Below, piece after piece: positions 3,207-16,503 of a DNA stretch of 36,011 nt. The number at the start of each line of letters is the position of its first letter. Position 1 is the stretch's first letter. The notes below the pieces were generated by a model, which saw only the letters and a list, made by a program, of their open reading frames with translations, did no database searches and had not been told where the DNA came from. The position numbers and the translations under genes were made by a program. This DNA comes from a virus. The stretch covers positions 1-36,011 of IMG/VR virus record IMGVR_UViG_3300046001_007790; one strand, 5' to 3'.

Positions 3207-4025
3207 GTGGATAATATAGAACGACCAAATAAAATTACATTTTACCGAGCCAATAAAAATAAACACATTCCAGGATGGAATGTTCACGCAGCATCGCCAA
3301 AACGAGATTGGATGGAAATCCATACGCATATGTATCGTTGTTTACCAATAACAATTGCTAATCAAAATGGGTGGGTCATTGAATGCCCGTGTGATATCTC
3401 TGCCATATGGTTTGGTGGATTGGATCCAAAAACATCTATGCATTTTTGGGTAGATAAAGAATATAATGTTCCAAATCCGTGGGTAAAATGTCATTTTCTT
3501 GGTGGTATAATCACATTCGAATTTGATTTCATAATTAAAACTACAGAGAAGACAAATTTATTAGTTCGTGGGGCACCAAACTTTTTTATTGATGGATTAC
3601 ATCCATTGGAGGGATTGGTCGAAACAGATTGGTTAAATTATAGTTTTACGATGAATTGGAAAGTGACACAACCAAATAAATTGGTAACTTTTAAAAAAGG
3701 TGATCCAATATGCTTTATCCAACCAGTGCCGCATAATTATTCTGAAACTTTTAATTTTGAAATTGATTATTTAGAAAATAATCCCGAAATGCACGAAGCA
3801 CACAGTATTTGGCACAACAAGAGAATGGAATTTAGTAGTAATCGTAAACAAGGTGTTGACAATCGTAAATGGCAAAAAGATTATTTTGATGGACGAGATG
3901 TAAAAACAGGCACAGTACACGGTGATAAACAGCACAGTACTAAATTACATTTATCAGATCCCGTTGATCAAAAATTACCGTCTAATTCTCCGTCTGTAAA
4001 AAATAAACTTGAGATAATTAAATAG
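3207..4025 (+). CDS. DUF6065-like conserved protein of unknown function
   Basis: A 272-residue protein starting at GTG behind AAGAGGTTACC, a ribosome binding site pattern shared with the clamp gene. The N-terminal half contains SPKRDWMEIHTHMYRCLP, ITIANQNGWVIECP and a later FKKGDPICFIQPVPHN segment, which match my recollection of the DUF6065 family (phage and bacterial proteins of unknown function). The C-terminal 60 residues are polar, low in hydrophobics and probably disordered. No catalytic motif is obvious. It lies 9 nt after the polymerase stop, so the two are probably cotranscribed. The following gap holds a new promoter, so this gene likely ends the first transcription unit, though no terminator hairpin is evident. 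Confidence 0.7.
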   Translation: MDNIERPNKITFYRANKNKHIPGWNVHAASPKRDWMEIHTHMYRCLPITIANQNGWVIECPCDISAIWFGGLDPKTSMHFWVDKEYNVPNPWVKCHFLGGIITFEFDFIIKTTEKTNLLVRGAPNFFIDGLHPLEGLVETDWLNYSFTMNWKVTQPNKLVTFKKGDPICFIQPVPHNYSETFNFEIDYLENNPEMHEAHSIWHNKRMEFSSNRKQGVDNRKWQKDYFDGRDVKTGTVHGDKQHSTKLHLSDPVDQKLPSNSPSVKNKLEIIK

Positions 4026-4039
4026 TATTTAATTACTAC

Positions 4040-4068
4040 TTGACAATCTAGTGTATGTGTATTATATT
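4040..4068 (+). promoter_or_regulatory. Sigma70-type promoter upstream of the microprotein-ligase operon
   Basis: TTGACA (4040-4045), a 17-nt spacer and TATATT (4063-4068), identical in boxes and spacing to the polymerase promoter. AGTATACCACA (4072-4082) again sits at the expected start site. It drives a short leader with GAGG at 4086-4089 before the first small gene at 4097. Confidence 0.8.
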
Positions 4069-5732: not shown

Positions 5733-6596
5733 ATGGAAATCGATTACAGCAGAATTTTACAACCGCAAGATGATGGATACGATGTACAAGTATTCAAACA
5801 ATTAAAGATACAAAACGGGTTTGTAAAAAAAGAATTTAATAATATTCCCAAACGATTTGATAATACAATATATATTCATTCTTGGCAGAAGGAAAGATTA
5901 CCAAGACCATTTGTCGATGCATCACATACATATTTTGATGTGTTGGAACAAGAGGCAAAAGATGCTGCCCCACTGGAATACTCTATATTATGTGGGTTAG
6001 TTGATGTATTATCCCCAATAGAATGTAACGATGGAAATGAATTCTCATGCCAACATCCAGCAGTTGAATATCCACACGCCTGGATAGTAATGACACCAGT
6101 AAACGGCAGACCGGCGGTTACCATTCGTAATATGTTACATGAAATGACACATTGGAAATTTACAACATTGGGATTTGGAAAGGGCTGTACACCTGATGTA
6201 TTTGACATGTTGGAACATAATAATCAATTTGTTTTAAATCCAATAGAAGAATTACATCACTCAATTGTAAACAGTTACGCAGATACTGCGCAATCCTCCG
6301 TAGGACACAAAGCATCGGGAAGACCAATCAGTGCAAGTATTCATGCATACGGATCATTTTTAATTGAAGCACATGTTGCATTGAAATTCGCACGACACAA
6401 CATTCAAAAAAACTACCAATGGTTTGGTTATGCAAAGAAGTGGGGTGGTAGATTGGAAGAATCTATGGAAGCGTTGTTGAAAGGTGCCAGAACAACTCCC
6501 AAGGGGGCACAATTACTATTGGGTATGTACAAGTGGACTAAACAGTTTCAGGAAGAATATACCGATACAGTAAAAACTTTATCAAAATTACTATAA
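5733..6596 (+). CDS. Zinc-metallopeptidase-like protein (HExxH)
   Basis: A 287-residue protein with HEMTH at 136-140 inside NMLHEMTHWKFTTLGFG, the HExxH zinc-peptidase signature (Glu137 as general base). EELHH near residue 190 could supply a third ligand, but this is a guess. The ATG at 5733 follows AGAGGA; a TTG at 5706 would add nine residues without a better site. No signal peptide is seen, so it should act in the cytoplasm or virion. The next gene overlaps its stop (TAATG). The substrate is unknown; remodelling of host or prohead proteins is possible. Alternative: a catalytically inactive fold relative. Confidence 0.6.
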   Translation: MEIDYSRILQPQDDGYDVQVFKQLKIQNGFVKKEFNNIPKRFDNTIYIHSWQKERLPRPFVDASHTYFDVLEQEAKDAAPLEYSILCGLVDVLSPIECNDGNEFSCQHPAVEYPHAWIVMTPVNGRPAVTIRNMLHEMTHWKFTTLGFGKGCTPDVFDMLEHNNQFVLNPIEELHHSIVNSYADTAQSSVGHKASGRPISASIHAYGSFLIEAHVALKFARHNIQKNYQWFGYAKKWGGRLEESMEALLKGARTTPKGAQLLLGMYKWTKQFQEEYTDTVKTLSKLL

Positions 6597-7201
6597 TGTA
6601 TTCGTTAACTGCATCGCTTCCATATCATTTATATGGGCAAGTTCGTCGTGAATTCATCACAAATGGAACGGATAGTGGAATAGATAATTGTATTATTCAC
6701 GCAGTTTCAGTTAAACCTACACAAGCATTAACATTTTCTGTGTTGCTGGAAAATGGTGCACAATATCGTGGTATTCCTATCCATGGATTTATTGTTGGTC
6801 AAGATGTAAACAATCGAATACCACCGGCAAAAAACTTACATAGCCACCAAGTATGGGGATGTTTTGGAACAGAATTCAGTATTATAGATATGAGTTTTTC
6901 CAAAGGATTGAGTGCTGAATGGCGTGATTCTACAGGAAAAACATTTTCAGGACGAGGATTGGGGTGGGCAATAGAATTTTATGATGATGGATATTCTAAC
7001 GCCCCACAACAAGATAAAAGTTTCAACATGCTTGTGTCACAAGAAGGTTATCTTGCTGCCATGCCAAATAATAGAGTTCGATGGTGGGAAGATTCATTTA
7101 CAAATTGGGAGTTACCTATTAATTTGAAAGTAAATCATAAGACATTTTATGTTGAGCAAATTGGAATAAATCCCGAAGAAACCGCGTATGTAAAGGAGTA
7201 A
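6596..7201 (+). CDS. Conserved phage protein of unknown function (201 aa)
   Basis: Coupled by TAATG to the metallopeptidase-like gene. The 201-residue product is rich in aromatic and glycine residues (GCFGTEFSIIDMSF, SGRGLGWAIEFYDDGY, NRVRWWEDSFTNWELP), which suggests a mostly beta soluble domain. No signal peptide, membrane helix or catalytic motif is seen. I do not recognise the family. Overlap with its upstream neighbour suggests the two products may work together. Confidence 0.6.
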   Translation: MYSLTASLPYHLYGQVRREFITNGTDSGIDNCIIHAVSVKPTQALTFSVLLENGAQYRGIPIHGFIVGQDVNNRIPPAKNLHSHQVWGCFGTEFSIIDMSFSKGLSAEWRDSTGKTFSGRGLGWAIEFYDDGYSNAPQQDKSFNMLVSQEGYLAAMPNNRVRWWEDSFTNWELPINLKVNHKTFYVEQIGINPEETAYVKE

Positions 7202-7578: not shown

Positions 7579-8298
7579 ATGGAAAAGTCAAAATTAGAAA
7601 AGTTTATTAGTAAATATAATCTTGGTGGTTCGTGTGAAAGTGTACTGTGGAAATCCGATGGAACCGATATCACTGTCAAGTGTATTTCCGATGACAAAAA
7701 TGTTCTTGGTATGGTTACAGTTAGGGATGTGCAATTGAGTGCGGGGGAGTACGGTATTTTTGATACGAAGCAGTTGTCGGCAATGTTATCTGTGCTAAAT
7801 GATGTGGTCACTATCACCCCCAAGCGTACAGAGAATAAAGTAACAGCAGTACACTTTGAAGATGGGAATGTAAAAGTTGATTATGTACTGGCAGATCCTG
7901 TGGTAATCCCCAATGCCCCTGAGTTGAAGCAACTCCCGAGTTTTGATGTAGAAATTAAATTAGATCAGAAATTTACTAATACATTTCTCCGAGCAAAGAG
8001 TGCTTTGTCTGATGCGGAAACATTCACTGTGATGAGTGATGGTACTTCTGCAAATGTAATTCTTGGATACTCTGATATGAATACCAATCGAATTACTTTG
8101 GATGTAGCTACCACAACGAACAATACTTTATCACCAATTAATTTCTCCGCACGATATTTCCGTGAAATTCTTGCGGCAAATAAGGAAGTAACTAGTGGTG
8201 TGTTGAAGGTTAGTTCGAAAGGATTGGCATATGTAAAGTTCGGCGCCACTGATTATAGTACTGATTACTACCTTGTGCAAATCCAGACAGCCTCCTAA
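7579..8298 (+). CDS. 45: DNA polymerase sliding clamp (T4 gp45-like)
   Basis: A 239-residue protein of the size of T4 gp45 (228), a trimeric ring that tethers the polymerase to DNA. The features fit: an N-terminal LEKFISKYNL helix, repeated beta-strand pattern, FDTKQLSAMLSVL in the first domain, FTNTFLRAKSALSDAETFTV at the domain boundary, and a C-terminal LKVSSKGLAYVKFGATDYSTDYYLV matching gp45/PCNA-fold endings. In T4-type phages the clamp also stimulates late transcription. AAGAGGTTAACGGTT precedes the ATG, a motif shared with the gene at 3207. The stop overlaps the start of the DruA-like gene. Confidence 0.85.
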   Translation: MEKSKLEKFISKYNLGGSCESVLWKSDGTDITVKCISDDKNVLGMVTVRDVQLSAGEYGIFDTKQLSAMLSVLNDVVTITPKRTENKVTAVHFEDGNVKVDYVLADPVVIPNAPELKQLPSFDVEIKLDQKFTNTFLRAKSALSDAETFTVMSDGTSANVILGYSDMNTNRITLDVATTTNNTLSPINFSARYFREILAANKEVTSGVLKVSSKGLAYVKFGATDYSTDYYLVQIQTAS

Positions 8299-13796: not shown

Positions 13797-14033
13797 ATGC
13801 CACGAAAGAAAAAGGAAAAACTTACCAGTTTTGAGTTGAAATTCACGGGTAAGATGAGTATATTAATTGAGCAAGAAAATCACGGGCCAATAGAGTTCCG
13901 TTTCAACGACATGGATACCGTCATGGCGGTCGTTCGTGTTATCTTGGATAAGACGGATAATAAAACATCGGTGGATGCATATGATACTCGCACACAAAAA
14001 ACCTTTACTAAAATTCTGGATAGTATCGAATGA
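13797..14033 (+). CDS. Small basic hypothetical protein (78 aa)
   Basis: The ATG at 13797 is one nucleotide after the previous stop; a longer frame opening at 13683 would run inside the preceding gene and is rejected. The product starts with a basic patch (PRKKKEKL), then FELKFTGKMSILIEQENHGPIEFRF in a beta pattern, ending TKILDSIE. It overlaps the nuclease gene by 4 nt (ATGA). Its coupling to the nuclease suggests a DNA-related accessory role, which is inference. Confidence 0.6.
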   Translation: MPRKKKEKLTSFELKFTGKMSILIEQENHGPIEFRFNDMDTVMAVVRVILDKTDNKTSVDAYDTRTQKTFTKILDSIE

Positions 14034-14938
14034 ATAAGATTAGCTATTCGCAGTATTCGTTGTGGGCAAATTGCCCAATGGCGTGGAAATTAAAGTATGT
14101 TGATGGTCATAGATTTGATGATTCGTCAATTAATACAGTATTCGGTACCGCTATGCACGAAGTCATCCAAGAGTGGCTTGAACAATACTATTACGCGGGA
14201 AAGGATACACAAGCAAAGAGTATTGACTTGGGTGAACCGTTGAAGCAGAAATTCATTACTTTGTTTCAAGAAAATACTACGGTCGATGCAAACGGGAATA
14301 AAGTATTCTTGTGTGACAAGAAAACCTTAATGGAATTTTACAATCAAGGATGTGAGATTCTATCCTATGTTCAGCAACATCGTAATAAGATTTTTCCTTC
14401 CAAGGATACCGTACTTGCGGGTATTGAATATCCGATTGAAACAGAAGTTCGTCCTGGTGTGACTTTTATTGGTTATGTCGATATTATCACCAAGAATGAA
14501 AAGACGGGTAAGGTTACGATCATCGACTTGAAAACTGCTCGGGCAGGATGGACACAGGCACAGAAGAGTGACCATATTAAACTAAATCAGATTTTGTTGT
14601 ATAAGAAGTTTATCTCTGAAAAGTTTAACACTCCGTTGGAAATGATTGGAACAGAGTTTATTATCTTGAAGCGAACAATTAGTGAGAATTCTCCGTATCT
14701 AATTCCTCGGGTAAGTACCTTCGAACCATCCAACGGAAAACCGTCAGTTAATCGAGCATGGGGACACATTGAAAAGTTCTTGGATGAATGTTTTGATGGG
14801 GAAGGAAATTATCGCACGGATTTGATTACCGCGACACCCAGCAAAGATAGTTGTAAGTATTGTGTGTATAAGGATAAGGAAGTATATTGTTCCGAATCAT
14901 TTTACAAAATCAAAAAGGTGAAGGTTGTCAATGGCTGA
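14030..14938 (+). CDS. PD-(D/E)XK exonuclease with Fe-S cysteine cluster (Cas4/RecB-like)
   Basis: A 302-residue nuclease. Motifs: N-terminal YSQYSLWANCPMAWKLKY, GTAMHEVIQEWL (His43), GIEYPIE, FIGYVDII (Asp151), IIDLKTA (Asp166-Leu-Lys168) and LNQILLYKKF (QxxxY). Cys15 together with Cys275, Cys278 and Cys287 (CKYC...YC) reproduces the four-cysteine Fe-S arrangement of Cas4 and AddB nucleases. These enzymes degrade or resect DNA ends; T4-type phages use such nucleases in recombination and host DNA breakdown. There are no Cas genes or repeats nearby, so a CRISPR role is not supported. The last 8 nt overlap the methyltransferase gene. Confidence 0.88.
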   Translation: MNKISYSQYSLWANCPMAWKLKYVDGHRFDDSSINTVFGTAMHEVIQEWLEQYYYAGKDTQAKSIDLGEPLKQKFITLFQENTTVDANGNKVFLCDKKTLMEFYNQGCEILSYVQQHRNKIFPSKDTVLAGIEYPIETEVRPGVTFIGYVDIITKNEKTGKVTIIDLKTARAGWTQAQKSDHIKLNQILLYKKFISEKFNTPLEMIGTEFIILKRTISENSPYLIPRVSTFEPSNGKPSVNRAWGHIEKFLDECFDGEGNYRTDLITATPSKDSCKYCVYKDKEVYCSESFYKIKKVKVVNG

Positions 14939-15554
14939 AAATCCAATGGTGAATTATTCTAAAATCATCGCCGAAACAAATAGTAAAATGTTTAATGTTC
15001 GGGATGAATATAAGAATAATAGTGTTGAAGAAAACATTGCCATTTGCAATAAGGAGCACTTGAAGTTCTCCGTGGGATGTATTAATATTACAGGAGAACT
15101 CAACATTGGAATGATGTTGCGGTCGGCGTCTTTGTTGGGAGCAGAAAACTTTTATATCTTTGGACGCAAGAAATTTGACGCTCGTTCCACGGTTGGGGCT
15201 GAGAATTATATTAATATCAAGCAAATTGTATTTGATGACCCGATTCACGCTGATGAAGAAATGCTACTGTATCTACAGAAATTATATGTTCATCATCACG
15301 AAATAGTTATTTGTGAACATGGTGGTGATCAATTGGGAACATTTACTTGGAATGATATTGGTATCTATCCACACAAAAATCATACCCCATTGTTTTTGTT
15401 CGGGAGTGAAAGTCATGGAGTTCCAGAGATTATTTCCAATGAACGTGCGTTTGCAAAAGTCAGTATCGGTCAACGTGGGGTGCTTCGGAGTTTCAATGTC
15501 AGTGCGGCAATGGCAATCGTGTGCTGGGATTACATCAAGGAGATGGGACTGTGA
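14931..15554 (+). CDS. TrmH/SpoU-family RNA 2'-O-methyltransferase
   Basis: A 207-residue SPOUT methyltransferase that would add a 2'-O-methyl group to tRNA or rRNA. Three family motifs are clear: motif 1, NIGMMLRSASLLGAENFYIFG (N and R conserved); motif 2, LFLFGSESHGVPEII (G-E-HG); motif 3, VLRSFNVSAAMAIVCWDY, which closes the trefoil knot that binds S-adenosylmethionine. The ATG at 14931, behind AAAGGTGAAGG, is preferred to the TTG at 14925. It lacks the extra N-terminal RNA-binding domain of larger SpoU proteins. A phage enzyme of this type may alter host tRNA to suit viral translation. Confidence 0.9.
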   Translation: MAENPMVNYSKIIAETNSKMFNVRDEYKNNSVEENIAICNKEHLKFSVGCINITGELNIGMMLRSASLLGAENFYIFGRKKFDARSTVGAENYINIKQIVFDDPIHADEEMLLYLQKLYVHHHEIVICEHGGDQLGTFTWNDIGIYPHKNHTPLFLFGSESHGVPEIISNERAFAKVSIGQRGVLRSFNVSAAMAIVCWDYIKEMGL

Positions 15555-15808
15555 ATAAACGAGAACTATACGAGGCTAATATGAACCTACAATTAGAAGA
15601 CCTTAAAAAGTCGGCAACGATTGCATGGGACGAATTGGATAAGTCTCATGCTGCCCGTGCAAAGTTGCATGATGAATTAGTTATTGCAGAAGGGCAACGA
15701 GATCAGGCGCGGGCCGAGCGTGATGCACTGAAGGCCGAAGTGGACACGCTTCGCGCTCAACACGCGCCGCCGCGCCTGAGGACTACACGTATGTGCACGT
15801 ACGTGTAG
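15551..15808 (+). CDS. Coiled-coil N-terminal part of a split gene
   Basis: GTG at 15551 behind AAGGAGAT overlaps the methyltransferase stop (GTGA). The first 70 or so residues are a charged coiled coil (LEDLKKSATIAWDELDKS, AEGQRDQARAERDALKAE, VDTLRAQ). The frame then enters a hairpin and stops with TAG at 15806-15808 after 85 residues, ending RTTRMCTYV, which looks like read-through of the hairpin, not native protein. If the 55 nt between the two copies of the 19-nt repeat are skipped, the frame continues into the zinc-knuckle segment ending at 16001, giving a protein of about 130 residues. Base composition is GC-richer than in neighbouring genes. Translation as an 85-residue truncated protein is the simplest alternative. 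Confidence 0.65.
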   Translation: MNKRELYEANMNLQLEDLKKSATIAWDELDKSHAARAKLHDELVIAEGQRDQARAERDALKAEVDTLRAQHAPPRLRTTRMCTYV

Positions 15809-15829
15809 TCCTCAACACGCGTCGCCGCG
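15756..15829 (+). repeat. 19-nt direct repeats separated by a 38-nt hairpin (55-nt repeat unit)
   Basis: CTCAACACGCGCCGCCGCG (15756-15774) recurs as CTCAACACGCGTCGCCGCG (15811-15829), one mismatch in 19, offset 55 nt. Between them TGAGGACTACACGTA (15777-15791) pairs perfectly with TACGTGTAGTCCTCA (15800-15814): 15 bp, extending by a U-G and a G-C pair to a 17-bp stem with loop TGCA. The 3' arm runs into the second repeat. The first four bases of the stem's 3' end, CTCA, are shared with that repeat. No T-run follows, so it is not an intrinsic terminator. Likely origin: insertion of a palindromic element with duplication of target sequence, or a programmed bypass signal. Confidence 0.8.
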
Positions 15830-16001
15830 AGTGTTGCCTGTTGTGTGTGCGGAGTGCAAAGGCATCGGGTACACCACGGTGCATTCAACCAGTGCGAACG
15901 GGGGCACCGTGATGACTCGTAAGTGTTCATGCAATGTTTCACCGTTGCTGATAAATGCCACCGCCGAATTCTGGTCAAAGGAGAATACACATGAAAGTTA
16001 G
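15811..16001 (+). pseudogene. Zinc-knuckle C-terminal part of the split gene, in a different frame
   Basis: Read in the frame of 15813, this stretch is open to TAG at 15999-16001 and encodes VVCAECKGIGYTTVHS, then GGTVMTRKCSCNVSP and a tail ending EFWSKENTHES. CxxC plus CxC with glycines looks like a small zinc knuckle of DnaJ type. There is no ATG before 15912 and no ribosome binding site, so alone it has no plausible start. Aligning the two repeat copies joins it exactly in frame to the coiled-coil part at 15551. It is marked a pseudogene provisionally; if ribosomes bypass the hairpin it would be the second half of a functional gene. The end overlaps the next small gene by 11 nt. Confidence 0.6.
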
Positions 16002-16103
16002 AGAACTGATTACAAAACTCCAAGGGTTAGACCAAAAAAATCTTTGAAATTATTAGGAAATACCGATAATATCTATTATATAGTATTTAAAAGACCCCCT
16101 TGA
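15991..16103 (+). pseudogene. Short MKVRELI-type phage protein with a frameshift at an A7 run
   Basis: The ATG at 15991 follows AAAGGAGAA. The zero frame gives only 18 residues (MKVRELITKLQGLDQKNL) before TGA at 16045-16047. The opening is typical of small phage proteins starting MKVxELIxxLQxLxQ, which are normally longer. Slipping -1 on AAAAAAAT (16034-16041) gives a frame continuing KKSLKLLGNTDNIYYIVF and ending KRPP with TGA at 16101-16103, about 37 residues. The zero-frame reading A AAA AAT is a canonical slippery heptamer. The stop overlaps the -35 box of the next promoter. Either a true mutation, a homopolymer sequencing error or programmed slippage explains it. Confidence 0.5.
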
Positions 16104-16129
16104 CAAATCCCCTGTGATTGTATTATACA
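16100..16129 (+). promoter_or_regulatory. Sigma70-type promoter for the 16183 gene cluster
   Basis: TTGACA (16100-16105) with TTATAC (16123-16128, 17-nt spacer) or TATACA (16124-16129, 18-nt spacer). It follows the end of the frameshifted short gene and precedes a 50-nt leader. An inverted repeat overlaps the -10 (see 16125-16148). Confidence 0.7.
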
Positions 16130-16148
16130 ACAACTGAAGATGTTGTAT
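16125..16148 (+). promoter_or_regulatory. Inverted repeat overlapping the -10, possible operator
   Basis: ATACAACA (16125-16132) and TGTTGTAT (16141-16148) are perfect complements separated by 8 nt (ACTGAAGA). The left arm covers the -10 box and the right arm lies in the transcribed leader, so it is placed as an operator for a dimeric repressor. If transcription begins upstream of it, it could instead form a leader hairpin. No protein binding it is identified. Confidence 0.5.
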
Positions 16149-16182
16149 TTCTTCCCATCCTAAATGTAGTAACGGAGTAAAT

Positions 16183-16503
16183 ATGGAAAATCTTGATGAT
16201 GATGGTTACCCGACTGATGCAGTATTAGATAAAATTACGAATTGGTCGCACACGGATAAGTTTGTTCATTTAATGGAATTTGTAAAGGATATTTGGTGGC
16301 AAGCGGATTGGGGATGGAGGGAGTATAATACCAAAGATTATAACAACCGTGATGAAATTACATACGACATTTCTACAGGTGGGTGGTCTGGTAACGAAAG
16401 TATTATTAATGCCCTTCAAGATAACAGATTGTTTTGGATGTGTTGTTGGGAGCAAAGTAACCGGGGTGGGCATTATATTTTTAAAGTATTAACGGAGAAT
16501 TAA
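16183..16503 (+). CDS. Hypothetical acidic Trp-rich phage protein (106 aa)
   Basis: The first gene after the 16100 promoter, with CGGAG upstream of the ATG. The 106-residue product starts MENLDDDGYPTDAVLDKI and has many tryptophans (FVKDIWWQADWGWREY, WMCCWEQSNRGGHY). The 'DDDGYPT...L..I..W' opening recurs in small phage proteins of unknown function. Soluble, acidic, without membrane segment. Followed closely by another small gene. Confidence 0.65.
   Translation: MENLDDDGYPTDAVLDKITNWSHTDKFVHLMEFVKDIWWQADWGWREYNTKDYNNRDEITYDISTGGWSGNESIINALQDNRLFWMCCWEQSNRGGHYIFKVLTEN

Follow-up and report, generated by a model that had tools for sequence, protein, structure and literature searches.

In phage T4 gene 60, translational bypass is associated with matching codons, a stop beside the take-off codon, a nascent-peptide signal and an SD-like motif before the landing codon (PMC5009743). 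The byp elements of Magnusiomyces capitatus mitochondria are found at 81 positions, in a system with relaxed mitochondrial decoding (PMC5009743). The locus analyzed here, which lies within a 36,011-nt stretch of viral DNA (the window), resembles gene 60 in that it belongs to an apparently T4-like phage and presents a gap of similar length (55 nt, as compared to 50 nt in gene 60), a hairpin with a UAG, two out-of-frame halves and matching codons. It shares with the byp elements a short palindromic block that breaks the frame of a coding gene, but is found as one copy (in 36 kb and the related contigs) and in a bacteriophage. REP palindromes and Rickettsia palindromic elements are likewise short palindromic DNA, the latter also within genes, whereas the present palindrome is single-copy, breaks the frame and has no family in the collections searched. 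With template-switch or quasi-palindrome mutations, the locus has in common a palindromic insertion, a short flanking duplication, a return microhomology (CTCA) and a stem-loop in the target. We consider it probable that an accessory gene was truncated here by a single 55-nt insertion, composed of a 36-nt palindromic filler and a 19-nt target duplication, that resulted from a replication or repair error. The features of the split site are the following (window coordinates).

15551–15808, plus strand: truncated upstream frame of 85 aa, starting with GTG; a coiled coil followed by an insert-encoded tail of about 10 residues, ending at the TAG 15806–15808
15756–15774, plus strand: direct repeat copy 1, CTCAACACGCGCCGCCGCG; position 15767 is T in L005 and L006
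15758–15838, plus strand: extended stem-loop, in which the new hairpin is enclosed by the stem that the target itself forms, CAACACGCG...CGCGAGTGTTG
15775–15810, plus strand: 36 nt without counterpart in the empty site, by comparison with L007
15777–15814, no strand assigned: near-perfect palindrome, TGAGGACTACACGTATGTG followed directly by CACGTACGTGTAGTCCTCA; 19-nt arms, one mismatch, no spacer
15811–15829, plus strand: direct repeat copy 2, CTCAACACGCGTCGCCGCG
15822–16001, plus strand: disconnected downstream frame with a CxxC/CxC zinc-knuckle-like segment, open to the TAG 15999–16001

The first-pass annotation, made from the sequence alone, had reported 19-nt copies with one mismatch lying 55 nt apart, and the same arrangement was found: the direct repeat CTCAACACGCG[C/T]CGCCGCG is present at 15756–15774 and at 15811–15829, with an offset of 55 nt and one mismatch. 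If only 15 nt are assigned to the duplication, the part without counterpart in the empty site becomes 40 nt (15775–15814). The 17-bp hairpin described between the repeats is indeed there, though its arms measure 19 nt and the 17 bp correspond to the stem with a 4-nt loop; the UAG assigned to its 3' arm was recovered as the TAG 15806–15808, and the TGA of the downstream frame is located at 15777–15779. The last four nucleotides of the palindrome, CTCA, are also the first four of the direct repeat. This palindrome is by far the strongest inverted repeat of the window (the runner-up has arms of 13 bp), the best arms in five mononucleotide shuffles of the window being 11–13. The RNA fold of the extended stem-loop 15758–15838 reaches -59.6 kcal/mol (z -4.8). 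A reading as intrinsic terminator, a GC-rich stem with a T run behind it, was rejected, no terminator-like site being detected in 15400–16250, and Rfam returned only sub-threshold microRNA hairpin look-alikes.

The window encodes a family B DNA polymerase, a ligase, a sliding clamp, a clamp loader and a SpoU methylase. The closest record to its polymerase is that of Microcystis phage Mel-JY01 (43.5% identity); Synechococcus T4-like phages come next. Because of these replication genes and closest records, the phage is classed as T4-like and probably infects cyanobacteria, probably in freshwater. The gene directly upstream of the split gene (14925–15554) is SpoU-family rRNA methylase-like (Pfam PF00588, E 1e-12) and has no PHROG match at E 0.001.

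When the coiled-coil half was used as a protein query, the contig IMGVR_UViG_3300017722_003108 (L007) was identified, in which positions 3687–4058, from an ATG at 3687 to the stop, form a single uninterrupted frame of 123 aa and exactly these 55 nt are absent. A single target copy without hairpin is found at 3894–3917 (...GCGCTCAACACGCGCCGCCGCGAGTGTTGCC...), and the DNA matches the window on both sides of the exact insertion junction. Since L007 displays an empty site, an intact frame and matching flanks, the 55 nt are an insertion. Removal of one unit had been predicted to join the two frames into about 130 residues; the joined frame does exist in L007 without the 55 nt, at the shorter length of 123. 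The proposal that a palindromic insertion with duplication broke the gene is thus supported, both by this homologue and by three contigs that share the insertion. The two other carriers, IMG/VR 3300042868_008706 (L005) and 3300044695_004146 (L006/L009), share about 99.8% identity with the window over 7.7–14.5 kb and contain this insertion down to its imperfect base. Their two repeat copies are identical to each other, as expected just after duplication. The three carriers surely represent one lineage, and the samples may come from a single series.

The L007 protein weakly matches phrog_27975 across both halves (residues 41–108, E 7e-4), which makes it probable that the joined form is ancestral and that the 55 nt were inserted, not lost from L007. 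AlphaFold, run on the single L007 sequence, predicts a long helix at residues 3–70 (pLDDT about 95 over most of its length), then a less certain beta segment. Among 50,697 phage records, none proved a convincing relative of the split gene (the best match, confined to the coiled-coil part, had E 0.6), the DNA of the locus gave no match in the phage collection, and a distant-relative search with the zinc-knuckle segment added nothing. In the related contigs L010–L013, the coiled-coil part is joined to other C-termini, and L010 contains it twice (5987–6158 and 6892–6987). As a side reading, the coiled-coil part could be a modular accessory domain reshuffled across these contigs. The split gene itself is a small accessory gene. 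From it, the phage would now produce the 85-residue coiled-coil protein and nothing longer, with presumably little or no translation of the zinc-knuckle segment.

All three carriers of the insertion have kept the downstream frame open. In the window, the usual TAA at 15975–15977 reads TCA, and the frame extends to the TAG 15999–16001. Comparison of the window with L006 over 7.7 kb showed that 13 of the 14 differences fall within 104 bp (15873–15976), three adjacent double changes included. Such a cluster points to recombination that left one lineage with another C-terminal segment, and not to decay in place. Between L006 and L007, the downstream segment differs by 7 synonymous and 5 non-synonymous changes, a lean towards the synonymous; together with the open frame, this could mean that the segment is still used, and most of the divergence may predate the insertion. 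The window-specific changes, small in number, are nearly all non-synonymous and have abolished the normal stop, a pattern closer to relaxed constraint. Two more clusters of differences (13951–14116 and 7719–8015) were observed between the window and L005 in otherwise near-identical contigs, suggesting small recombination patches.

Several other origins of the 55 nt were weighed at the DNA level. It is formally possible that L007 arose by a precise deletion between the repeats. Palindromes can also come from amplification and assembly, yet a false palindrome of this kind is very improbable: L005 and L006 are separate metagenome records with the same insertion and the same imperfect base, which makes an assembly error unlikely, and one of the two contigs differs from the window in the neighbouring segment. 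If the insert were one copy of a REP, MITE or RPE-like mobile palindrome that made a long target duplication, its palindromic nature, the clean duplication and a sequence foreign to the locus would be accounted for; the searches for other copies make this reading doubtful, and a multicopy mobile element is unlikely in view of the matches obtained. Neither the 36-kb window nor the ten other contigs examined yielded a second copy of the hairpin (Microcystis phage Mel-JY01, for comparison, has 190 kb). Exact and gapped patterns of the hairpin arms matched only L005 and L006 among viral contigs, and five unrelated loci among prokaryote genome contigs (85,000 genomes). Because about 5 matches are expected by chance (257 Gb x 21 spacings / 4^20), these five are at chance level. 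Blastn of the hairpin gave nothing in plasmids and only weak partial matches in phage records (E about 2 or more), the latter being the search of other phage genomes that the first-pass annotation had advised. The mobile insertion that it had also put forward therefore lacks a second copy in the window, related contigs, viral contigs, genomes, plasmids and phages. Moreover, a duplication of 15–19 nt exceeds the usual length for IS or MITE, whose target duplications are shorter. Hairpins of the form TGAGGACTAC...GTAGTCCTCA in L031 and L032 (intergenic) and in L033 (coding) have different bodies and no flanking repeats, and were taken as chance. The L031 (2997–3045) and L032 (2047–2095) stretches are near-identical and contain the intergenic hairpin TGAGGACTACAC...CTGTAGTCCTCA, the outer arm of which is common to the palindrome of the window. 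A longer palindrome arm, ACGGACTACACGGA...TCCGTGTAGTCCGT, is common to the unrelated bacterial contigs L023 (784–823), L024 (2392–2433) and L025 (4205–4240) and perhaps represents a separate dispersed palindromic repeat family.

The two remaining alternatives accept the insertion and assume that ribosomes overcome it. In a bypass, ribosomes would leave the message at a codon of the first repeat copy and resume at the identical codon of the second, 55 nt further on, giving the full protein. The codons CAA, CAC, GCG and CCG do match in register exactly 55 nt apart, the hairpin is stable, the frames rejoin, the downstream frame is kept open in all three carriers and the phage is of the T4 type. 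The first-pass annotation had proposed these four codons, identical in both copies, as take-off and landing sites; all four match, with only one CCG. However, such matches are inevitable once the target has been duplicated and, because any duplicated target supplies them, they are no evidence of bypass; here they stem from the 19-nt duplication, unlike in gene 60. Most gene 60 signals are absent. The candidate take-off codons are followed by CAC, GCG, CCG and CGC, so that no stop lies next to any of them, and the first in-frame stop (15806) is at least 33 nt beyond each. The 14-mers before the candidate landing codons contain no SD-like GAG or GGAG. As for a nascent-peptide signal, no KKYK-like stretch is present 25–30 residues before the site, the only KK being at residues 19–20, about 50 residues upstream. 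The gene 60 feature of a take-off codon embedded in a stem-loop that opens the gap has a less clear counterpart here: the core hairpin sits after, not around, the take-off codons, the compact form (15777–15814) excluding them and the extended fold placing some of them in its outer stem. An insertion-free gene exists in L007, and the nature of the window-specific downstream changes, lost stop included, also speaks against a maintained fusion. The idea of a phage bypass element is hence without positive support, and we regard it as highly unlikely. Fusion by a +1 frameshift is, if anything, even less credible. A shift between 15780 and the TAG 15806 would take ribosomes via the hairpin-coded frame into the downstream frame, which, beyond the TGA 15777–15779, stays open over 15780–16001, and a strong structure is present; but GUG UAG is no known +1 slippery motif, such as the CUU UGA of prfB, and the structure was created by the insertion itself.

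The replication or repair error that we favor may be pictured as follows. The replication fork would stall at the GC-rich stem-loop of the target, and the nascent strand would acquire a short foreign or fold-back sequence. Synthesis would then restart 19 nt back at the CTCA microhomology, leaving the frame shifted and the protein truncated. In L007, the empty target folds as a CAACAC-GCG/CGC-GTGTTG stem-loop, which is not unusually stable for its composition (z -0.97 versus shuffles). The CTCA common to the end of the palindrome and the start of the repeat is predicted by a return on microhomology. A search of the related sequence gave no donor for the 36-nt filler (no exact match longer than 11 nt), which leaves the template switch a proposed step. 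This is also where the locus departs from template-switch and quasi-palindrome mutations, since its filler has no local donor from which the copying step could be traced. By slippage from one 19-nt repeat to the other, the gene could perhaps be restored precisely.

A bypass would be exciting, as it would add a phage case to T4 gene 60 and offer a view of how such gaps originate, but no positive evidence speaks for it and its probability is very low. The insertion is probably an ordinary, though tidy, mutation, which most likely shortens the protein. It calls for caution in that matching codons around a hairpin gap are exactly what a target duplication yields, and this pattern alone is not evidence of bypass. 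With its empty and filled alleles, the locus provides a clean natural case of a palindrome with target duplication inside a phage gene.
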